Positions 3,180-33,898 of a stretch of DNA of 34,211 nucleotides are shown here, one piece after another. Numbering within the stretch: position 1 is the stretch's first letter; each line of letters opens with the position of its first letter. The DNA comes from Desulfobulbaceae bacterium (GTDB taxonomy: Bacteria > Desulfobacterota > Desulfobulbia > Desulfobulbales > Desulfobulbaceae), in NCBI GenBank assembly GCA_013201405.1, contig JABMJC010000012.1, forward strand, positions 1-34,211, written 5' to 3'. A model generated the notes under the pieces. That model saw nothing but the letters and a program-made list of their open reading frames with translations, made no database searches and was not told where the DNA came from. The translations under genes and the position numbers were made by a program.

Positions 3180-6074
3180 TCAGTTCGTTGAAGGGTCGTT
3201 TGTTTTTAGGTGATGGTTGGAAATCGGTCGATTGACATCAGAATCAGCAGATGCACGTCTTCTTTCGTTACGTCCATAATGGATATAATGTTCAAGTGGG
3301 TTTATTCCGCTATCTCGAACATCATGATATTCTTCCAGGTACCAATTTGTATTAAATAATGGACTAGGGTTTTTCCCTTCAGCAGCGCCTTGGATTAAAT
3401 AATGAATTAACGGATCAACTCCATTTTTTTTCACTTCAGGATACATTGTTAGATACCATTCTGTATCAAAAAATTGGTTCGGATTTTTTTTGCCTATAGC
3501 CCATGAATTAATATAATTTAAAAGTGGTTGCTGATTGTGGGCAAGAACTTCAGGGTATTTGTTTATATACCATTCAGTATTAAACAGAGGATTAGGATCT
3601 TTTCCTTCTTTCCAACCGGTATATATATAATGGATTAATGGATCTATTTTTAATCTACGGACATCGCTATATCTATTCAAGTACCATTTTGTGTTGAAAT
3701 AGGGGCTAGGATTATTCCCTTCATGCCATCCAATAGTCATGTAGTGCAGTAAAGGTTCTATCCCGGAAAACTCTATTTCCGGATAATTTTCTTTATACCA
3801 TTGTGAATCAAAGTACGGATTAGTATTTCTTCCTTCTTTTGCACCATGAATTAAAAAATGGGTTAGAGGGTTTTTGTTACTTTTCTTGACGTCTGTATAT
3901 TTGTTTAAATACCAATCAGTATGAAAATAGAGACTAGGGTTTCTTCCCTCTTTGGCCCCAAATAAAATATAATGTACCAGAGGGTTTAAATGTTTTTCTT
4001 TAACATCGTTATATGCATTTATGTACCACAATGAATCGAAATATGGGTTTGGATTTGTATTTGTGTACCCAAAGTGAAGATAATAAATTATTGGTTCGAT
4101 AGGTAAATTTTTAATTAAAGGATATGTTTTGATGTACCATTCGCTACAAAAGAGTTTGCTTTTTTTAATAATTTTAACAATTTTATAATTGTATATTATA
4201 TTTTTTAGTTTAAATCTTTTAGAATAAAATTCTGCACTTAGAATGGCATTGTTGTGCACTATTTTTTTTATCTCTTCATTTTTTAATGTTAGCTCGTTTT
4301 CTTTATAGGATAGTTTTGATTCAGCTAATGAAATATGTTTTTCTAATTCTTCCAATAAATTTTGAAGGTTAAAAAAAGAATTTTTTGCTCCTGGATTCCA
4401 TGATGAAATGAGTGATAATTGATTGTCTGGATAAAAAATATCCGTTTGTATTTTGCTTTCCAGGATAGCAAACTCTTTTAGATTTTTTTCAGTAACTGAA
4501 AATCCAGCACTCTTAATAGATGCAATAAAAAAATCAAGACGAGTTTTTGGAAATATAGTAGAGCTCCTGCCAAATTTCGTAATATTAGATACAACTTGTA
4601 ATAAAGTTCGAAACAAAATCCATCCTAATGGAATATCATTTTTTAAACTCCACTCCTGATCAATTATTTTATATGTTCCATTAGATAAGCAAATAATATT
4701 TTGTGGAATAATATCAAAACATACTCCAGGCAAAAGCCTTGTTATAGAATCGAAGCAGACGAATGTCCCTTTTTCAGTGAGGTAAGAATCAATGATGTCA
4801 AGATATTGTTTCAATAAATCTCCTATTTCTTTAATGTCCCACTTGTCACGAGTTACGACTTTGAGAAATTTTAAGGCAAGCGATTCTCCATGTATATACT
4901 TTGCAGTTGCTGGAATATTGAACAGGATGTAGCGACCCTCCCTGCTGCGCACAGCATCCGGACTTAAGGGATTATATAATAATTCAATATTGTTAATGTC
5001 TTTTTGCACAAAAAGAGTTTCTTTGCAAAAATTACTATGGCGACCATTTGTACTGTAATGATAGGCAAGGATAGATGTATCATGCCCTACCTGAGCAGAT
5101 GTTCGGGCAAGCACCAAAAAAGAATTGGCAAGTTCAAGGGTGAGACCGTTGGCATCCACGACTGGCCAGGCAAGTTCTGGCGCAAAGACAAGGGGGGAGG
5201 CCAATTGAGGATCGCGCCGGGCACTTTGCCAGCACAGGGCTGCAGCATCAAATGTATCGCAGTTGAGGCCTTGTTCGGTGAGGATTGAGATTGGAAGTTT
5301 GTAGTCAGGGAATGGTGCCATGAATTGCTGATTAATAAACCCTGCCTGTTGGAGCTTTGTTGCTAAAACCTTTCGACCAAAGGTTCGCGGCCCTTTTGTT
5401 GAGTAGCGTCCTTCAATGCCAAGCATGGGTTCGCCCGTGTGGTCTTCTGCCGCACCAGCAAAATACTTAAGCCCCAACTGGTTCTCAATAGCCAGGATCA
5501 AGCGTCCTTCGGGTTTAAGCAACTCGCGAATCCGTGTGAGCATGCTAACCACAGGGTTTTCATCATCCGTAAATAGAGCTGCATATTCCAGCACCCCAAT
5601 CAGCGTGATGATATCAAAGCGCAAATCCAAATCACATTGAAACTGGTCGAATTTGTCGGCGACTATAGTCACATTTTCTAGGTCTCGCGTTCTTGAACGG
5701 GCAATGACCGCTCGCCTGGGCGAGCCTTCCAACGCAAGCACGTTGGCTCCACTCTCTCCTAAATATCGAGTGATAGCCCCGCAGCCGGCTCCTATTTCAA
5801 GCACATTAGCCTGCTTTAAGATTGAATGAAAAGGACGCAGAATATTGGCGCGCGTGCCAGAAAGATGATACAAAGAAGGCCAGTCTGTGCATTGAACTGC
5901 CAGTTCTCTGGAAAAGATGGAAAGATCTTGTGCTTCAGCAATTATGTTTGCAATGCGATTTTCTGTTTCATCACCGTCACTGTATGCAATACCTGCATAA
6001 CCGGGTTTCATAAAGATAGAAATTTTGTCGGCCAGCGTATAGCCGGAATCTATAAGCATGGAAGGGAAGTTCAT
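3180..6074 (-). CDS. Methyltransferase/kinase-like/coiled-coil protein with eight 38-residue C-terminal repeats
   Basis: This is a 964-residue modular protein. Residues 85-200 are a class I SAM methyltransferase (VLEIGAGCGA at 91-100, an acidic residue in LALEGSPRR, later RLILAIENQLGLKYF). Around 450-476 a VCFDIIPQNII...KIIDQEW pattern (D454, N459, D472) resembles the catalytic and metal-binding segments of small-molecule/protein-like kinases, but most kinase landmarks are not obvious. Residues about 568-605 form a short coiled coil. Residues 641-943 are eight repeats of 37-38 residues with consensus (Y/L)F-(D/N)-T-x-WYL-x-x-YP-(D/E)-V, then PLxHYxxxG-x-x-EG-x-NP. The first and sixth are divergent. 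Methyltransferase + kinase + coiled coil beside Wzt recalls WbdD, which caps and measures O-antigen chains in ABC-exporter systems. The repeat tail is not part of WbdD. Similar repeats occur in glycan-related proteins. The start overlaps the wzt stop by 4 bases (ATGA), so the two are translationally coupled. The 3' half is AT-rich. Confidence 0.75.
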   Translation of the reverse strand: MNFPSMLIDSGYTLADKISIFMKPGYAGIAYSDGDETENRIANIIAEAQDLSIFSRELAVQCTDWPSLYHLSGTRANILRPFHSILKQANVLEIGAGCGAITRYLGESGANVLALEGSPRRAVIARSRTRDLENVTIVADKFDQFQCDLDLRFDIITLIGVLEYAALFTDDENPVVSMLTRIRELLKPEGRLILAIENQLGLKYFAGAAEDHTGEPMLGIEGRYSTKGPRTFGRKVLATKLQQAGFINQQFMAPFPDYKLPISILTEQGLNCDTFDAAALCWQSARRDPQLASPLVFAPELAWPVVDANGLTLELANSFLVLARTSAQVGHDTSILAYHYSTNGRHSNFCKETLFVQKDINNIELLYNPLSPDAVRSREGRYILFNIPATAKYIHGESLALKFLKVVTRDKWDIKEIGDLLKQYLDIIDSYLTEKGTFVCFDSITRLLPGVCFDIIPQNIICLSNGTYKIIDQEWSLKNDIPLGWILFRTLLQVVSNITKFGRSSTIFPKTRLDFFIASIKSAGFSVTEKNLKEFAILESKIQTDIFYPDNQLSLISSWNPGAKNSFFNLQNLLEELEKHISLAESKLSYKENELTLKNEEIKKIVHNNAILSAEFYSKRFKLKNIIYNYKIVKIIKKSKLFCSEWYIKTYPLIKNLPIEPIIYYLHFGYTNTNPNPYFDSLWYINAYNDVKEKHLNPLVHYILFGAKEGRNPSLYFHTDWYLNKYTDVKKSNKNPLTHFLIHGAKEGRNTNPYFDSQWYKENYPEIEFSGIEPLLHYMTIGWHEGNNPSPYFNTKWYLNRYSDVRRLKIDPLIHYIYTGWKEGKDPNPLFNTEWYINKYPEVLAHNQQPLLNYINSWAIGKKNPNQFFDTEWYLTMYPEVKKNGVDPLIHYLIQGAAEGKNPSPLFNTNWYLEEYHDVRDSGINPLEHYIHYGRNERRRASADSDVNRPISNHHLKTNDPSTN
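3246..4154 (-). repeat. Eight tandem 38-residue WYL/HY/EG protein repeats
   Basis: This is the coding region for residues 641-943 of the methyltransferase/repeat protein. Eight units of about 114 bases follow each other without linkers. Each unit has a WY at positions 6-7, a Y at 11, V/I at 14, P at 21, HY at 24-25, G at 29, and usually EG-x-NP at the end. Protein identity between units is moderate and the DNA is well diverged, so this is an old expansion rather than a recent slippage event. Confidence 0.85.
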
Positions 6075-24932: not shown

Positions 24933-25625
24933 GTGACACTCTCTATTTTTGAAATGATGGTCAACGCTGGGATCGTGGTGAAGTTTGTTATGATCCTGTT
25001 GCTGTTTTTTTCCGTGGGATCCTGGTCCATCGTTTTGATGAAATGGATCATGTTTCGCCGGGCCAAAAATTCATCCTCCGAGTTTTTGGAGGCTTTCTGG
25101 GAAAGCAAAACCTTCAACGAAGCCTATGATGCTGCCCGGGATTTTCCCCTGAGCCCGGAAGCGACAGTGTTTGTTATTGGCTACAATGAGTTGAAAAAAA
25201 TCAGCAGTGCACACAACACTGCCCAGTCTGCGCCCACACTGGAAATGCAGCTTGCCACCATGGACAACCTCAAACGTTCGGTGCGTAAGGCGCAGTTCTT
25301 GGAAAGTGACCGTATGGCAAAGTTTCTTTCCTTTCTGGCCACCACGGGCAGTTCCACTCCCTTTATCGGGCTCTTTGGCACGGTTTGGGGTATTATGACC
25401 TCGTTCAAGGATATTGGTGTACGGGGATCCGCATCCCTGGCCGTGGTTGCACCCGGTATATCTGAAGCCCTGGTTGCCACGGCAGCGGGCTTGGCCGTGG
25501 CCATTCCAGCAGTTATCTTTTACAATTATTTTTCCAGTAAGGTGGTCGAGGTCGAATCGGATATGGAGAGCTTCAGTACCGACTTCATCAACCTGATTGA
25601 GCGCGACATCCTCGCCAGGACGTGA
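24933..25625 (+). CDS. tolQ: TolQ proton-channel subunit
   Basis: This is a 230-residue inner-membrane protein of the MotA/TolQ/ExbB family. With TolR it converts the proton gradient into movement of TolA for outer-membrane constriction during division. Three membrane segments are visible: about 14-36, about 132-155 (ATTGSSTPFIGLFGTVWGIM) and about 170-193 (ISEALVATAAGLAVAIPAVIFYNYF). The FIGLFGTVWGIMxSF and EALxATAxGLxVAIPA motifs are diagnostic. The start is GTG 24933, with AAAGG 7 bases upstream. ybgC, which often precedes tolQ, is absent. Confidence 0.95.
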   Translation: MTLSIFEMMVNAGIVVKFVMILLLFFSVGSWSIVLMKWIMFRRAKNSSSEFLEAFWESKTFNEAYDAARDFPLSPEATVFVIGYNELKKISSAHNTAQSAPTLEMQLATMDNLKRSVRKAQFLESDRMAKFLSFLATTGSSTPFIGLFGTVWGIMTSFKDIGVRGSASLAVVAPGISEALVATAAGLAVAIPAVIFYNYFSSKVVEVESDMESFSTDFINLIERDILART

Positions 25626-25628
25626 TCT

Positions 25629-26057
25629 ATGGGCATGGGAAGTGTAGGAGGAAAGCGGGGCAGGCACGGGAGTGTCATGAATGAGATCAATGTCACCCCG
25701 CTGGTTGATGTCATGCTGGTTTTGCTGATCATTTTCATGGTGGCTGCCCCTATGATGAGCCAGGGTTTGGAGGTTGATTTACCGGAAGCCACCACCAGAT
25801 CCTTGCCGCAATCAGAAACACCCCTGGTGGTTACCATTGACAAGAATGGTGAGCTGTATCTGCGCAAGGACAAAGTCGCTACAACCTCTTTGCTTGCACA
25901 GTTGCAAGACATGCCTGCTGAACAAAAAAAAGAGCCGATCTATATCCATGCGGATAAAAGTGTATCCTACGGGGCGGTTATGTCTACGTTGAGCGCCATT
26001 CACCGCGCAGGTTTTGAAAAACCGAGCATGGTGACTTTGCCAGAAGAGAACAAGTAG
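25629..26057 (+). CDS. tolR: TolR proton-channel/peptidoglycan-binding subunit
   Basis: This is a 142-residue protein of the ExbD/TolR family. It has a short cytoplasmic start, one membrane helix (about 22-42) preceded by the MNEINVTPLVDVMLVLLIIF motif with the proton-relaying aspartate (D27), then a periplasmic domain with VDLPEATTRSLPQ, TIDKNGELYL and IYIHADKSVSYG. It begins 3 bases after tolQ. The Gly/Arg-rich first 15 residues (MGMGSVGGKRGRHGS) are typical of the family. Confidence 0.95.
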   Translation: MGMGSVGGKRGRHGSVMNEINVTPLVDVMLVLLIIFMVAAPMMSQGLEVDLPEATTRSLPQSETPLVVTIDKNGELYLRKDKVATTSLLAQLQDMPAEQKKEPIYIHADKSVSYGAVMSTLSAIHRAGFEKPSMVTLPEENK

Positions 26058-26071
26058 TAAGGAAGGTCCCC

Positions 26072-27256
26072 TTGGCTGGTCCCCGTTTTACCGAGAAGGA
26101 CTTCTTCAGTACGCAGCGGCGCGAAGATCAGCGCTGGTTCATCTGTTTGACCCTGGCCTTTTTGCTGCATGTGGGGTTGGGAGGACTGGTCTTGTTCATG
26201 CCCTCCCTGTTCGATGCCCGTATGCCCATTGAAGAGGCGGTCATTGTCAGCATTGCGCCTCCCACGCCTGAGACAGCACCCACCTTGGGGCCGCCATCTG
26301 CTGCGCCTGAACCTGCAGCGCAGAGAAGCGAGGCTGCTCCCGAACCTGCGCCTGCGCCAACCAAACCAGAACCCAAACCCGAGCCTACGCCACCCGAACC
26401 TGAATCCAGGCCCGAGCCGGTTCCGGAAAGGGTTGCGCCGCCGCCCGAACCTACGCCACCGCCGCCACCACCCAAGCCGGAGCTAAAACCCGAACCACCA
26501 CCGGAGCCAGTGGTGGCCGCCAAGGAGCCTATTTCCTTGGCACCGGTGCAGCGGAAGCAAAAAATTGCCCAAGATACTCGTCTTCAGGAAGAACGTGATC
26601 GGGCACGGCAGGAAGAGGAGAAAAGGCTCGCTCGGGAACTCCAACAGCGGGAACAGCGTAAGCGCGAGGCAGATGAGCGGGAACTTGCGAAAAAACTCGA
26701 AGAGCAGAAACGCAATGCTGAACGCCGTTTACAGGAGCAACGCGAGCAGGAACGACAGAAGGCCATAGCAGAGGCACGCAGACGGCAGGCACAGGAAGAT
26801 GCAAGAAGGGCTGAAGCGAATGCCCGCCGTGCCGAGGAAGATGCTCGTCGTGCCCGTGAGGCATTGGCCAGCACCCGTGCCGAGGCCAGCAGACAAACAG
26901 CCGCCATCCAGTCTGCCGCAACCCAGGCGGCAACCGGCCGGCAACAGGGAGCTTCGTCGGGTATTGAGCAACAATACTGGGCGCAGGTGGCGCAACGGGT
27001 GCGGAGCTATTGGGTGCTGCCAGAGATGAGGCGTTGGGATGCCTCTTTGCTTGCCCAGGTCGTCATTACCATCAACAGTGATGGTCAGGTAACCCGTATT
27101 GCCTTTGACGATCGCTCCAATGATCCGCTTTTCGACCAACTGGTGGAAAAAACCATCCGACAGGCCTCTCCCATGCCGCGTTTCCCTGCGGTTATGCAAC
27201 AGAGCAGCACCCAAGTCGGTTTCAAATTCAGACCAGGCGAACTTGGCAACATATAG
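26072..27256 (+). CDS. tolA: TolA periplasm-spanning protein
   Basis: This 394-residue protein links the TolQR motor to the outer membrane. Residues 1-25 are cytoplasmic; a membrane helix spans about 26-47 (CLTLAFLLHVGLGGLVLFMP). A Pro/Glu/Lys-rich segment (about 60-155) is followed by a long Arg/Glu/Ala/Gln helix (about 160-285), and the C-terminal TonB-like domain (about 300-394) has QYWAQVAQRVRSYWVLP and VVITINSDGQVTRIAF. The start is TTG 26072, with AAGGAAGG 5-6 bases upstream. The Pro-rich part comes before the helix, so the span is partly TonB-like in style. Confidence 0.92.
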   Translation: MAGPRFTEKDFFSTQRREDQRWFICLTLAFLLHVGLGGLVLFMPSLFDARMPIEEAVIVSIAPPTPETAPTLGPPSAAPEPAAQRSEAAPEPAPAPTKPEPKPEPTPPEPESRPEPVPERVAPPPEPTPPPPPPKPELKPEPPPEPVVAAKEPISLAPVQRKQKIAQDTRLQEERDRARQEEEKRLARELQQREQRKREADERELAKKLEEQKRNAERRLQEQREQERQKAIAEARRRQAQEDARRAEANARRAEEDARRAREALASTRAEASRQTAAIQSAATQAATGRQQGASSGIEQQYWAQVAQRVRSYWVLPEMRRWDASLLAQVVITINSDGQVTRIAFDDRSNDPLFDQLVEKTIRQASPMPRFPAVMQQSSTQVGFKFRPGELGNI

Positions 27257-27257
27257 A

Positions 27258-27290
27258 AGATAGTGTATACATAGGCTCGATATACTATCT
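27258..27290 (+). other. Hairpin in the tolA-tolB gap
   Basis: AGATAGTGTATA (27258-27269) pairs with TATACTATCT (27281-27290), with a two-base bulge. It begins directly after the tolA stop and is followed by ACAAAAAAT rather than T-residues. It may protect the upstream message end or tune tolB expression. Confidence 0.3.
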
Positions 27291-27325
27291 CCACAAAAAA
27301 TCTCTTTATTATTGGTAACAGACCT

Positions 27326-28618
27326 ATGCGACGCATACAGCCGGGCGCTCTCTTTTTAGTCTTTGTTTTTTCCCTTTTTTGTGCCTATCCCCTGACTGTT
27401 CGGGCTGAGACCACGTATTTTGATATCACTGCCTCCGAGGTGCGTAAAATTATTGTGGCAGTGCCCGGCTTTACCGGTTCTGCAGCAGCGCCGGGCAATG
27501 CCGGTATGACGGTTGCCAAGCTGATCACCGATGGCTTTGAACTCTACAGCTTTTTGAACACCATCGACTATGGAAGATATGGCGGTCGTAAAGATGCGGA
27601 TTGGAAGGCAATGGGCGTTGATTATGTGGTTATGGGCGAGGTAAACAGCGACTCTGCTGGCTTGGCGGTTGAGGGGCAGATCCTTGAAGTGGCCACCAAC
27701 CGCATGCTTCCCGGCCGGCGCTACAGGGGGGCATCGAGCCAACTGGAAGACATGGCGCTCAAGCTCTGTGACGCACTCATCGAAGATTTTACCGGCGAAC
27801 CAGGGGTTGCCCGTACAAAAATGGCCTACATCTCCGATGCTACCGGCAGAAAAGAGGTGTATGTTACCGATATTCTCGGTCGACATCCACGGCAAATTAC
27901 CAAACACAGGGCATTGGCTGTTTCACCTAGATTTACACCTGATGCCAACTCGCTGGCTTACACCAGTTACCATCGTGGCAACCAGGATCTGTATATCACT
28001 GATCTGAGGCAGAGTTCGCAGACCAGTTCCATCTCCCGTCGTCCTGGTTTAAATCTGGCCCCGGCGTTCACTCCAGATGGCAATATGATCGTCACCTTGA
28101 GTGTCGGCGGTAATCCAGATTTGTACCTGATTGATCGTCAGGGCAAAATCCTTAGCCAGCTGACTGAGCGGGCCGGCATCAATGTTTCACCGTCCATATC
28201 GCCAGATGGGCGGACTATTGCCTTTGCCTCCGATCGTTCCAGGGGTGGGCACCCCAAGGTCTATCTGATGGATTTGGGCAGTCGGCAAGTACGACTTCTA
28301 CAAAATTCAATTGGTGAGTGCAGCGAGCCGGCCTGGTCGCCCAAAGGTGATGAAATTGCCTTTACCGGTCTAGTGGGAGGGAGTTATCAAGTTTTTGTTT
28401 GTGATCGTAATGGTGGTAATGTTCGCCAGATATCAAGCGGCGGCGGAGATTTTGAATCGCCGACTTGGGCGCCAGACGGCCGCCTGATTGCAGCGACAAG
28501 AAAATCTGGAGGCCGCTCCCAAGTTTGTGTGCTGAGTAAAAATGGCAAGGATGTGCGCGTGTTGCTGAATATGCGCGGCAATCTTTCCTTCCCGCAGTGG
28601 TCTCCCAGGCTACCCTAG
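27326..28618 (+). CDS. tolB: TolB periplasmic beta-propeller protein
   Basis: This is a 430-residue periplasmic protein of the Tol-Pal system, normally bound to Pal. It has a signal peptide (ALFLVFVFSLFCAYPLTVRA, cleavage near 27), an N-terminal alpha/beta domain (about 30-165, with VDYVVMGEVN), and a six-bladed propeller with repeated PD-type WD-like units (FTPDANSLAYTSYHRGNQDLYI, SPDGRTIAFASDRSRGG, WAPDGRLIAATRKSGG; about 170-425). No good ribosome-binding site is seen before the ATG, so translation may depend on coupling or the hairpin upstream. The next gene is cpoB; pal is absent. Confidence 0.95.
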   Translation: MRRIQPGALFLVFVFSLFCAYPLTVRAETTYFDITASEVRKIIVAVPGFTGSAAAPGNAGMTVAKLITDGFELYSFLNTIDYGRYGGRKDADWKAMGVDYVVMGEVNSDSAGLAVEGQILEVATNRMLPGRRYRGASSQLEDMALKLCDALIEDFTGEPGVARTKMAYISDATGRKEVYVTDILGRHPRQITKHRALAVSPRFTPDANSLAYTSYHRGNQDLYITDLRQSSQTSSISRRPGLNLAPAFTPDGNMIVTLSVGGNPDLYLIDRQGKILSQLTERAGINVSPSISPDGRTIAFASDRSRGGHPKVYLMDLGSRQVRLLQNSIGECSEPAWSPKGDEIAFTGLVGGSYQVFVCDRNGGNVRQISSGGGDFESPTWAPDGRLIAATRKSGGRSQVCVLSKNGKDVRVLLNMRGNLSFPQWSPRLP

Positions 28619-28793
28619 CGGTGGCGAGACAGAGAGGGGATGATGGCAGAGTAGTGATTCCTGCGGCTGCTGAGCCTGTGTACTGATGTGTTTTTAATGC
28701 GTGTATAGGGCAAGGGATATCAAGATGGTTGCAGCACGTACACTGGTTGGTCGTGCACTGTAACGAGAAAGAGTATTGCAAGAGGGTGGGGAA

Positions 28794-29948
28794 ATGAGAG
28801 GCATTCGTTCTGTTTTTTATGCTGGTGGTGCGTTGATCCTGTTAAGTCAATGTACCATTCAGGATGATATATACCAGTTACAGAATCAGGTGAGGGTGGT
28901 CAACCAGAAGGTTGAAGCCTTACGGGCAGATGAAGTGGGCCAAATGGAAAGGCGCCAGGCTAGCTCGGTCAACAAACTGGGCCAGGTTGAAGATGAAACG
29001 CAACGCATTCGTTCCAGTATAGAGGAAAATATCGCCCAGAACGCCCAGTTCCAGACTGAAGTCAACGAGACCATGGCTGGCATGCGTTCTTCGCTGGAAT
29101 CCATGCGCCAGGAAAACAACGTTAAGATCGCTGAACTCAACGAAAAAATTGCAGATCTTGATGCCAAAATGCTGCGCATGGGCGAATCCCTGGGCAAGGC
29201 GCAGCAGGCACGGGTAGCGGAGGCAGAAAAACGTGCAGCTGAGGCTTCGCGACGGGCAGAAGAGGCGCGGCAAAAAGCTGCGGCCGCAGCCAGATCTGCA
29301 GAATCTGCAGCTCGCGCAAATACCCCGGTCCCGGCTCCGGCACGCAGCACGCAAGTTGCAGCAACCGAGACTACAGCCACTGCGGTGAAAATTACACCAA
29401 GCGGTGGTAAAACCAGGGTTGCAAGGGAAGATGTGCAAGTACAAAGTGCTCCAGCGACAACCCAGACAGCCACAACCGCGGCAGCACCTCCACCTGCTAC
29501 AGCCGCTGCCAAACCTGCGGCGTCCGCACCAGCACAGCAAACGCAGCAACCTGCCGCGGCTCCAGCACCTGCTGCACCAGCATCTGGTGATGTCTATGCG
29601 CAGGGCATGCAGCAGTACGGTAGTAAGCAGTACAAAGATGCCTACAAATCATTTGAGCGGGCCCTGGCTGCCAATCCGAATGGCCCCCAGGCAGCAGACA
29701 CGCTTTTCCACATGGGCGAAAGCCTGTACAATCAGGGTGAATACGACCTGGCCATTCTGGATTATCAAAAGGTCATCTCCAATCACGGTTCCAGTGCTCT
29801 GGCTTCCAAGGCCTTGCTCAAACAGGGCATGGCTTTTGAGAAGCTGACCGACAATGAAACCGCCAAAATTATTTACCGTAAACTGCTCAACGATTATAAA
29901 AAGAGTCCTGAGGCAAATCAGGCGCAGGAACGGTTGAATAAACTTTAA
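28794..29948 (+). CDS. cpoB: CpoB/YbgF-like Tol-associated TPR protein
   Basis: This is a 384-residue periplasmic protein. The N-terminus carries a membrane or lipoprotein-like signal (VFYAGGALILLSQC, Cys near residue 20; Gln before Cys is unusual for a lipobox). A coiled coil (about 25-160, rich in Gln, Glu and Ala) follows, then a low-complexity Pro/Ala/Thr linker (about 165-265), and C-terminal TPR repeats (about 267-384: YAQGMQQYGSKQYKDAYKSF, LFHMGESLYNQGEYDLAI, ALLKQGMAFEKL). This matches YbgF/CpoB, which coordinates peptidoglycan synthesis with Tol action. I chose the ATG at 28794, with GGTGGGG a few bases before it; a TTG six codons earlier overlaps that site. Confidence 0.88.
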   Translation: MRGIRSVFYAGGALILLSQCTIQDDIYQLQNQVRVVNQKVEALRADEVGQMERRQASSVNKLGQVEDETQRIRSSIEENIAQNAQFQTEVNETMAGMRSSLESMRQENNVKIAELNEKIADLDAKMLRMGESLGKAQQARVAEAEKRAAEASRRAEEARQKAAAAARSAESAARANTPVPAPARSTQVAATETTATAVKITPSGGKTRVAREDVQVQSAPATTQTATTAAAPPPATAAAKPAASAPAQQTQQPAAAPAPAAPASGDVYAQGMQQYGSKQYKDAYKSFERALAANPNGPQAADTLFHMGESLYNQGEYDLAILDYQKVISNHGSSALASKALLKQGMAFEKLTDNETAKIIYRKLLNDYKKSPEANQAQERLNKL

Positions 29949-31289: not shown

Positions 31290-32972
31290 ATGACACGTCT
31301 TGCTGTTGTCGGGACTGCAGGCTCTCTTGCCTGGCAGGCTGCCCGGCATTTTGATGCTGCAAAAACGATCCATCCCTGCGCAGACATGACTGCCCTGCTG
31401 GAAACCTTTACTGGTGGGCAGGCTGAATACGGTCTTTTTTCCGTGTACAACACACGAGAAGGGGAGCGTAAGCAGCATTTTCGTTTTTTTGACCGCATCA
31501 CCACCGGGTATTGGGTGGACAATGTGGTGCTGTATTCGCAGATTTCCCTGGGCGTTTTCGAGGAAACAGGTACTGTTGCCGACGTGCGCACTGTGGTGGG
31601 TACCAAGGAATCGCTCAGCCAGTGCGAAGAGTATATTGCCACACATCTATCTTTGGCCACGGAAATCAGTGTGGCAAATGTTAACATTGCCATTGAAGCA
31701 ATCAGACAGGGGCATGGTGCCGGACTTGCAGTCATAGACAGTGAGGAAAACCTGCGCAGCCTTGGTCTGCAGGTATTGGAACGGGAGATTGCGCCCTACA
31801 ACCGCACACGTTATGCGGTTTTTGGCCACGGTTTAGCGCCAGCCAGTGGTTATGACGCTACAGTGTTCATCACCGAGCCTTTGCCAGACCGAGTTGGGCT
31901 TTTGGTTGATATCCTGGGCGAATTTTCCCGTCGCGGTATCAATATCCTGGACCTACGCACGGAAAACGATGTAAAAACGCAACGGTTGCGCATTTATCTT
32001 GAGGTGGAGGGTCATATTGCCGAAAAGAACATGAGCTCTGCCATTGAACACATTGAGGCGCGGGTTATCCAACAGAAAGGGGCCTTGCGGCTTTTGGGCA
32101 GTTTCCCCCGGGTGGATATGCGCACCAAGCATATCAAGACTTTTGGCTTTATAGGGACTGGTGCAATGAGCCAGTGGTTTGCCGAGCGTTTGCGAGGCGA
32201 AGGCTACAATGTTCTACTCACCGGCCGCAAGAGTGAGCTCAGACCTGAGGAAATGGTGCAGCAGGCCGATGTGGTGGTTATCTGTGTACCCATCTCCGCC
32301 ACTTCGGCAACCGTGCAACACTATGGACCATTACTTACCCAGGGGCAAGCCCTGATTCTGTTGGCAGGGGAGTCGGAGGGAACTATACAAAGTGCCCTGG
32401 CTGCCACGGATCCTGGCGTAGAAGTGATGCTGGTGCACAATCTTTGGGGGCCCAAAGCCGCCACCATGCGGGACAAAAACGCCATTATCGTGCGCACTTC
32501 CCGCAGCGGCGTTTTTTGCAGTGAGTTCGAATCGTTTTTATACAAGCATGGTGCCGACATTTTTCATGATTCACCCAGCAAACACGACCTGCTTATGGGG
32601 GTGGGCCAGCGCCTGCCCACGATCATTTCCGTGGCTCTTGCCATGACCCTGCATGATAACCATATTACCAGTGAAGATATCGCCAGCCACTGCTCACTGA
32701 CTTCTCTGTATTCAATTTTAGCCATGGCCAGGGTTCATTCACAAAACGCACGAACCTATGCCGAGATCATGGCCACAGCAGGTGACAGCCGCAAAATCGC
32801 GTGGGACTTTGCCAAAAATTTGCATGCGGTTATGCGGTTGGCCGATGACTCCTCCATTGCGGCCCTGACTGAGCAGATTGATGAAAATGCCCGTAATTTG
32901 AGTGCGCATTTTCTTGAAGCCCGCATGCGCCAGGCAACAGCAGTGGATGAAGTGCTTACTCGCATGCTGTAA
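31290..32972 (+). CDS. Fused prephenate dehydratase-like / ACT / prephenate dehydrogenase protein
   Basis: This 560-residue fusion belongs to phenylalanine/tyrosine synthesis. Residues 1-180 resemble prephenate dehydratase: the opening LAVVGTAGSLAWQAARHF mirrors the family's GP-x-G-(S/T) start, N54 sits in YNTREG, Q111-C112 in SLSQC, and T173-R174-Y175 stand for the catalytic TRF. The usual PIEN and His-Pro residues are changed, so activity is uncertain. Residues about 188-268 are an ACT domain (DRVGLLVDILGEFSRRGINIL) for allosteric control. Residues 283-560 are a TyrA-type dehydrogenase: NAD motif FGFIGTGAMSQWFAERL, DVVVICVPISAT, and H383 in LVHNLWGPKAA, as in E. coli-type TyrA. No chorismate-mutase domain is present. 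No ribosome-binding site precedes the ATG. Confidence 0.88.
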   Translation: MTRLAVVGTAGSLAWQAARHFDAAKTIHPCADMTALLETFTGGQAEYGLFSVYNTREGERKQHFRFFDRITTGYWVDNVVLYSQISLGVFEETGTVADVRTVVGTKESLSQCEEYIATHLSLATEISVANVNIAIEAIRQGHGAGLAVIDSEENLRSLGLQVLEREIAPYNRTRYAVFGHGLAPASGYDATVFITEPLPDRVGLLVDILGEFSRRGINILDLRTENDVKTQRLRIYLEVEGHIAEKNMSSAIEHIEARVIQQKGALRLLGSFPRVDMRTKHIKTFGFIGTGAMSQWFAERLRGEGYNVLLTGRKSELRPEEMVQQADVVVICVPISATSATVQHYGPLLTQGQALILLAGESEGTIQSALAATDPGVEVMLVHNLWGPKAATMRDKNAIIVRTSRSGVFCSEFESFLYKHGADIFHDSPSKHDLLMGVGQRLPTIISVALAMTLHDNHITSEDIASHCSLTSLYSILAMARVHSQNARTYAEIMATAGDSRKIAWDFAKNLHAVMRLADDSSIAALTEQIDENARNLSAHFLEARMRQATAVDEVLTRML

Positions 32973-33821: not shown

Positions 33822-33898
33822 GTGGGCGTAGCTCAGCTGGTGGTAGCACCGGGTTGTGGCCTCGGAGGTCGTGGGTTCAAATCCCATCGCTCACCCCA
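33822..33898 (+). tRNA. tRNA-His (anticodon GTG)
   Basis: The acceptor arms GTGGGCG (33822-33828) and CGCTCAC (33888-33894) pair, with one G-T wobble. The anticodon stem CCGGG/CTCGG encloses TTGTGGC with anticodon GTG. The T arm is GTGGG-TTCAAAT-CCCAT. A C at position 73 and a G just before the 5' end (33821) give the extra -1 pair typical of tRNA-His, and CCA is encoded (33896-33898). The D stem is slightly irregular: GCTC faces AGCA, so three pairs form. Confidence 0.95.

Follow-up and report, generated by a model that had tools for sequence, protein, structure and literature searches.

What does a single protein do that carries a prephenate dehydratase-like (PDT-like) domain, an ACT domain and a TyrA dehydrogenase domain in one chain, and does its front half still act as a dehydratase? 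The question is raised by an open reading frame in a 34,211-nt stretch of DNA from a Desulfobulbaceae bacterium (hereafter, the window), which is contig 157 of a 185-contig, 2.46-Mb assembly scored 99.99% complete. An initial annotation had described this frame as a PheA-like–ACT–TyrA fusion without a mutase, and had suspected that its drifted dehydratase domain may now be regulatory only. Here, we examine both halves of the fused protein, their relatives in the order and phylum, and the accounts of its function that these data permit.

The fused gene, its distribution and origin

Both the coordinates and the domain order of the proposed fusion turned out to be right, as judged from the reading frame, Pfam matches and profile searches (Table 1). 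The frame extends only three codons upstream of the start at 31290, which would give 563 residues. The PF00800 match lies over the Pfam cut-off of 25.2 bits (77.9 bits in the genome search), the ACT match (residues 198–229, 25.2 bits) under its cut-off of 27. In the dehydrogenase half, PDH_C (PF20463) matches residues 428–527 with 24.5 bits (cut-off 22), PDH_N (PF02153) matches residues 321–358 with 17.9 bits, under its cut-off of 26.5, and an F420_oxidored/Rossmann match covers residues 285–355. No Pfam match to a chorismate mutase domain (CM_2) was found in the fused protein. For fold assignment, a profile of 31 fused sequences was compared with PDB sequences. It matched solved PDTs (4lub, E 8.9e-27; also 3mwb, 6vh5, 2qmx and 2qmw) within positions 2–276, and H. 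influenzae TyrA (2pv7, E 2.9e-19) over positions 280–543. An AlphaFold2 model of the fusion built from four sequences was of poor quality, with a mean pLDDT of 57 and a pTM of 0.40. With the NCBIfam equivalog PRK11898 the fusion scored 65.9 bits, under the cut-off of 219, and the PheA of the same genome 283.1.

Table 1. Position of the fused gene, its domains and selected residues in the window
Feature	Position	Strand	Basis or remark
Fused PDT-like–ACT–TyrA gene	31290..32972	+	560 aa plus stop
PDT-like domain, residues 5–180	31302..31829	+	PF00800, 75.3 bits
Altered PIENxxxG motif, residues 51–58, SVYNTREG	31440..31463	+	alignment
Altered SHxxxxxQ motif, residues 104–111	31599..31622	+	alignment
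TRF motif as TRY, residues 173–175; Thr and Arg kept	31806..31814	+	alignment
ACT domain, residues ~190–278	31857..32123	+	Pfam and alignment
TyrA dehydrogenase domain, residues ~283–545	32136..32924	+	Pfam, alignment and profile
G360-E361-S362 (S176-V177-K178 in E. coli TyrA)	32367..32375	+	alignment
H383, counterpart of the catalytic His197 in E. coli TyrA	32436..32438	+	alignment; role from the available text of PMC2954222
T444 (His257 in E. coli TyrA)	32619..32621	+	alignment; presumed equivalent of Aquifex His217

A second dehydratase, which the initial annotation had proposed to look for, is indeed encoded in the same genome. Two PDT matches were found, the fusion (78 bits) and a PheA on contig 102 (212 bits); the latter is an intact chorismate mutase–PDT–ACT protein of 424 residues. 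CM_2 matches the genome once, within the frame of this PheA, and a search for a CM_1-type chorismate mutase gave no match. PDH_N and PDH_C each match the fused frame alone, and the fused protein is the only recognisable TyrA of this genome. Since a separate intact PheA is present, phenylalanine synthesis should not need the fused protein. Moreover, since PheA holds the only recognisable chorismate mutase, it is expected to feed both branches.

The fusion is widespread in the order. We surveyed 115 genomes (the present one included), 112 of which had some match to it. According to the match table, read by hand, a full-length fused frame occurs in 97 of them, representing 43 of 45 genera and 14 of 15 families; two genomes (G074 and G075) account for the missing ones. 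Partial, contig-cut or frameshifted copies were found in 11 genomes (G003, G014, G016, G018, G020, G027, G028, G061, G067, G092 and G100), only weak, canonical PheA-like matches in four (G008, G062, G074 and G075) and no match in three (G042, G044 and G045). The four named loci of the fusion carry the names bacterium, Deltaproteobacteria bacterium, Desulfobulbaceae bacterium and uncultured Desulfobulbus sp. In a second sample of 117 order genomes, each at least 90% complete, PDH_C had one match each in 112 (over the cut-off in 110) and none in five (G074, G075, G092, G435 and G437). The frame bearing it is at least 558 residues long in 109 genomes, the exceptions being G027 (435), G443 (486) and G429 (263). 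PDH_N exceeded its cut-off in just three of the 117 genomes, twice in the fused protein and once in a separate TyrA. Thus, the fused protein is the only recognisable tyrosine-branch dehydrogenase in nearly all order genomes examined. The same 117 genomes hold exactly one CM_2 match in 112 cases, and two PDT matches in 97 cases, three in 14, one in five and none in one.

Several genomes depart from this pattern. The separate TyrA belongs to G437 (L145:3850-4614), where a TyrA-like frame of 254 residues has an intact DTCSVK and PDT, CM_2 and PDH_C are all without match; the whole branch-point set has possibly been replaced in this genome. In G072 (98% complete) and G419 (91%), the sole PDT match is the fused copy (E 1.7e-29 and 2.3e-29, respectively) and CM_2 has no match, which may reflect either phenylalanine auxotrophy or an assembly gap. 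Third PDT copies (L125–L129, in G035, G433, G407, G436 and G050) form a clade of their own; their frames of 287–327 residues are too short for an added mutase. Finally, G424 encodes a further PDT-like protein (L132, + strand, frame start near 562; a 308-residue frame) with NSRGG at the place of the ENSxEG of PDTs.

Among the matches listed for a phylum sample of 296 genomes, only the 12 genomes of the same order have the full-length fusion, and four others (G125, G135, G144 and G268) show a single match that runs over both halves with an internal stop; weaker cases may lie outside this list. In G125 (L041), a pheA gene is followed by a tyrA gene in the same frame. In a quick tree of 75 rows, whose root is arbitrary and in which long branches elsewhere were flagged, the 29 fused PDTs group together in a single clade (SH-aLRT 100), separate from that of the PheA proteins of the order. 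The stem of this clade is long (3.79 changes per column), and the tree names no donor PDT. The simplest account is a single fusion event in the ancestor of the order. By analogy with L041, a plausible route would be the loss of the stop between adjacent pheA and tyrA genes, together with loss of the mutase.

The gene surroundings were considered as a clue to function but were of no help. In the window, FtsJ/TlyA-like and SH3 genes precede the fused gene, and a zinc-ribbon gene and tRNA-His (GTG; 33822-33898, + strand) come after it. Of 25 loci compared, the fused gene could be placed in 23, the window included (L115 and L121 being unplaced). Five recurrent families make up 29 of the 46 immediate neighbours: zinc-ribbon, helicase-like, DUF445-like, SH3 and FtsJ/TlyA-like, the helicase and DUF445 families having been named by eye. 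No aromatic-pathway enzyme was found among these families as named or, by Pfam, among ten of the 16 rarer neighbours listed (the other six being short proteins of 90–138 residues). Six of the ten had no Pfam match at E 1e-5, and the others were MCP signalling, PilZ, MFS and citrate transporter proteins. The sole hint of linkage comes from G089 (L071), where a canonical pheA lies ~3.5 kb downstream on the same contig and strand. Promoter-like sites near the gene number three against 3.1 expected, terminator-like sites six against 3.2 (sd 1.8). Elsewhere in the window, a Tol-Pal-like run upstream (24933-29948; MotA/TolQ, ExbD/TolR, TonB-C/TolA, PD40/TolB and a TPR protein by Pfam) has parts that recur close to the fused gene in several relatives. 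At 3180-6074 (− strand), a 964-residue protein combines a methyltransferase N-terminus (Pfam) with a C-terminal array of the repeat WY..YPDV...PL.HY...G..EGR.P, recognised by eye and without Pfam match.

A rewritten dehydratase site and ACT loop

The alignment combines 57 distinct fused proteins of full length and 28 rows of canonical PheA, of which 22 come from the order, five from the phylum and one from E. coli. Left out of the 57 were the frameshifted copies of G027 and G028 (L078 and L079), L080 (a duplicate of L006), the partial or contig-cut copies of G003, G014, G016, G018, G020, G061, G067, G092 and G100, and full-length copies whose loci were not retrieved. In E. coli numbering, N160, G164, Q215 and R279 are kept in all 57 fusions, T278 in 56 and N276 in 55. 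N160, Q215 and T278 are three of four catalytic residues of E. coli PDT. Other site residues have changed. E159, S208 and T234 (the Thr of STA), each present in all 28 canonical rows, are largely or entirely gone: E159 is lost in all 57 fusions (Tyr in 53, Phe in two, His in two), S208 is kept in one and replaced with Gly in 55, and T234 is kept in one and replaced with Leu, Ile or Val in 52. In addition, H117 has become Trp in 51 fusions, D171 Arg in 46, E183 Asn in 56, and S233 Asp in 45 or Asn in eight; H209 is variable.

In the protein encoded in the window, Y53 and N54 are the equivalents of E159 and N160, G104 and Q111 those of S208 and Q215, and T105-K106 stand at the position of E. coli H209-P210. 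The change of PIEN to SVYN pointed out by the initial annotation is thus real, yet its two parts differ in scope. The Glu-to-Tyr change is shared with most of the order (consensus PVYNTREG), whereas Pro-to-Ser is private to this genome, Pro being kept in 56 of the 57 fusions. The reported loss of the His-Pro pair likewise stands as an observation, but Pro is no signature of PDTs, the PheA of the same genome having SHAQ. Wide presence of the same fusion with intact motifs had been named as evidence against a drifted domain; the fusion is widespread, but its motifs are altered (E159 in 57 copies, S208 and T234 in 56 each). Chance residue changes and assembly error were also considered as sources of these differences and are ruled out by order-wide conservation in 57 largely concordant copies.

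"Drifted" is nevertheless only partly the right word. The site is altered, but several changes are fixed order-wide and catalytic core positions are kept, so that the domain gives the impression of having been put to a new use, not of decay. The same picture emerges from the domain as a whole. Without E. coli, the canonical rows number 27, and 49 PDT columns are invariant (at least 95%) in them; the fusions keep ten of these, have a new fixed residue in five and vary in 34. Outside the 49, 11 PDT columns are fixed to new residues and three to the canonical consensus in the fusions. The positions fixed at 90% or more in the fused PDT half thus comprise ten old and 16 new ones, plus the three shared with the canonical consensus. 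With such old and new fixed positions set among variable ones, this half resembles neither an intact enzyme nor a neutral relic.

Taken together with the intact second PheA, the altered site bears out the suspicion that the front part no longer serves as the dehydratase; dehydratase activity appears to have been lost, and a purely regulatory N-terminal half is plausible. On the other hand, the retained N160, Q215 and T278 mean that residual activity could persist. A truly bifunctional enzyme, whose altered PDT half would still dehydrate prephenate or arogenate, could also draw on R279, as these four residues are kept in 56 or 57 of the 57 copies, and on the related GqqA, which is described in the available text of PMC8192741 as complementing an E. 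coli pheA mutant with two of four such residues left. In G072 and G419, furthermore, the fused copy is the only PDT match at hand. Since these two assemblies also lack CM_2, PheA may merely be missing from them, and the G072 copy (L066) bears the same altered residues as the rest. Because E159, S208 and the STA Thr are lost throughout the order, and because most of its genomes hold a second PDT match that is strong, we regard bifunctionality as quite unlikely.

The ACT domain has been rewritten as well. The ESRP motif, the phenylalanine-binding motif of ACT, occurs in all 28 canonical rows and in none of the 57 fusions. In the protein of the window it is replaced by RTEN (residues 223–226) followed by D227; the fused loops read mainly R-S/T-E-N/T/S and then Asp, D227 being present in 56 of 57. 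In E. coli numbering, E329 of ACT has become Arg in 49 fusions and R331 Glu in 50.

How strongly the domains are conserved was compared in 16 genomes that hold both the fusion and a canonical PheA. Mean PDT identity is 42% for the fused and 71% for the canonical proteins, the fused value being lower in all 120 pairs, while ACT identities are alike (62% fused, 61% canonical) and the fused TyrA stands at 62%. Median Nei–Gojobori dN/dS values for pairs at least 72% identical, with undefined or very small dS dropped, are 0.126 for PDT (115 pairs), 0.072 for ACT (115) and 0.086 for TyrA (121), from pairs that are not independent and with many dS values near saturation. The fused PDT domain is under purifying selection. 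In two genomes, G027 (L078) and G028 (L079), frameshifts split the fused gene inside or just past the PDT domain; conserved sequence goes on in the other frame, so these frameshifts look recent or like sequencing errors. A PDT half that is simply a neutral remnant on its way out would fit the 34 of 49 formerly invariant columns now variable, the highest median dN of the three domains and the two frameshifts. It fits poorly with the low dN/dS, with the old and new positions fixed in this half, with its retention in 14 of 15 families and with the probable nature of the frameshifts, and we consider it very improbable.

Another reading makes the PDT-ACT half mainly a docking module that pairs with the PDT-ACT part of PheA, bringing mutase, dehydratase and dehydrogenase into one complex in which mixed dimers set the flux. 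Such a mixed complex is possible because PheA holds the only recognisable mutase of this genome; a single CM_2 match is present in 112 of 117 order genomes. The conservation data agree with it in that the fused ACT is as conserved as that of PheA and the PDT half is not, and ACT is part of the dimer interface in GqqA according to the available text of PMC8192741. Against it, Geobacter and others carry aroQ-pheA beside a free tyrA, as given in the accessible part of PMC1173090, so docking is not required; we judge this reading unlikely.

An unusual dehydrogenase site

The initial annotation dealt with the dehydratase site; the dehydrogenase half has active-site changes of its own. Compared with 15 separate TyrA rows (14 from the phylum, and E. 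coli), all 57 fusions keep H197, H245, R294, Q298 and Y303 in E. coli numbering, and 54 keep D246. The catalytic Ser (S176), present in all 15 separate TyrA rows, is Gly in all 57 fusions. With K178 changed to Ser or Ala and D173 to Leu or Ile, the DxxSxK motif is erased. H257 is Thr or Ser in all 57, and this half, too, has gained many new invariant residues. According to the available text of PMC2954222, His200, Ser179 and Arg297 are key conserved residues of H. influenzae TyrA, the catalytic Ser is conserved across kingdoms, the Ser126Ala substitution in A. aeolicus TyrA lowers kcat 15-fold and raises Km tenfold, and A. aeolicus His217 is critical to tyrosine inhibition. The latter probably corresponds to E. 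coli His257 and H. influenzae His260. Given the effect of Ser126Ala, the loss of Ser in all fusions makes TyrA activity itself uncertain, and it is the sole-copy status of the fusion that points to such activity. As to specificity, Gly-Arg at 312–313, where an acidic residue is expected under the Asp rule for cofactor choice (in the part of PMC1173090 available), suggests NADP+ as cofactor. For the substrate, the presence of Gln instead of an acidic residue close to it points to prephenate (following the available text of PMC5681985), with Gln485 as the presumed decisive position.

Could the whole fusion then have left tyrosine synthesis for another substrate, with tyrosine taken up from outside or produced by an enzyme that escapes recognition? 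The Ser-to-Gly change in every copy, the lost Lys178, the erased DxxSxK and the many new invariants could be read in this way, as could PDH_N scores over the cut-off in only two fused copies of the 117-genome sample. This is difficult to reconcile with the retained core His, His-Asp relay, substrate Arg, Gln and Tyr, with the lack of any other TyrA over the cut-off in the 117 order genomes except G437, and with the presence of the fusion in 14 of 15 families. We therefore regard it as distinctly improbable.

A putative control module and its relation to known systems

On these grounds we consider it rather probable that the fusion is the order's tyrosine dehydrogenase, regulated through a pseudo-dehydratase–ACT module. 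The catalytic half would oxidatively decarboxylate prephenate (arogenate being less likely), probably with NADP+, and would do so without the Ser and presumably without tyrosine feedback at the active site. The PDT-ACT module would, on the simplest account, have become attached to TyrA a single time, in the order's ancestor. It has lost residues expected for efficient dehydration and phenylalanine sensing, and both these motifs and the ACT loop have gained invariant residues peculiar to the fusion. Most likely, it would bind a ligand from the pathway (in the former catalytic cleft, prephenate; on ACT, tyrosine or some other amino acid) and would set the activity of the attached dehydrogenase. 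It would thereby take the place of tyrosine feedback at the active site, for which the key His appears to be gone; a PDT-ACT unit with its core motif residues kept and its ACT ligand loop rewritten would be a natural replacement regulator. Phenylalanine would be made by the separate intact mutase–PDT–ACT PheA, the source of chorismate mutase for both branches. Both the regulation and the ligand are predictions. A wider version, in which a pseudo-dehydratase decoy copied from the phenylalanine branch senses prephenate in the old cleft and/or pairs with PheA throughout the order, so that the branch point is not governed by tyrosine at the dehydrogenase active site, is offered tentatively.

If the favoured account is true, an ancient branch-point enzyme became the control domain of its competitor and was kept through an order. 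Because the His presumed to mediate tyrosine inhibition is replaced in all 57 fusions, the family would amount to a natural experiment on how a fused module may take over the feedback of an active site. There are also practical consequences for annotation. Automatic procedures could label the fused protein a dehydratase, and since PDH_N is under the cut-off or absent in 114 of the 117 order genomes, a false gap in tyrosine synthesis could arise when pathways are called automatically. Sequence databases may already annotate the fused protein; in the open-access literature searched, we found no description of a PDT-ACT-TyrA protein in Desulfobulbus relatives.

The fusion resembles several known systems, each in a different way. 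With PheA (the E. coli P-protein and the one on contig 102) it shares the PDT and ACT folds, their order and the equivalents of N160, Q215, T278 and R279; it differs in having no mutase, E159, S208, T234 or ESRP, and in bearing TyrA at its C-terminus. The available text of Song et al. 2005 (PMC1173090) names AroQ, AroF, HisHb, ACT and REG as fusion partners of TyrA, besides the four-domain protein of Archaeoglobus; PDT-ACT-TyrA is not among the fusions found there. The Archaeoglobus fulgidus protein (TyrA-AroQ-PheA-ACT; same source) likewise unites TyrA, PDT and ACT in one chain, but it begins with TyrA and also contains a mutase, whereas here the order is PDT-ACT-TyrA, without mutase and in a bacterial order. 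As far as the accessible part of a 2024 archaeal survey goes (PMC11237513), the mutase–PDT–dehydrogenase fusion appears unique to two archaeal lineages. Bacillus-type TyrA-ACT and archaeal TyrA-REG proteins, as described in the available text of PMC1173090, also couple TyrA to a regulatory small-molecule domain; in them this domain is C-terminal and without PDT, unlike the N-terminal PDT-ACT unit of the fusion. AroQ-TyrA of E. coli and H. influenzae (2pv7) provides the closest solved TyrA by profile, with the His, His-Asp pair, Arg, Gln and Tyr in common; its partner is a mutase, and its catalytic Ser and His257/His260 are both absent in the fusion. The fused protein is thus a further variant of the known fusions of aromatic-branch enzymes, with an unusual TyrA site.
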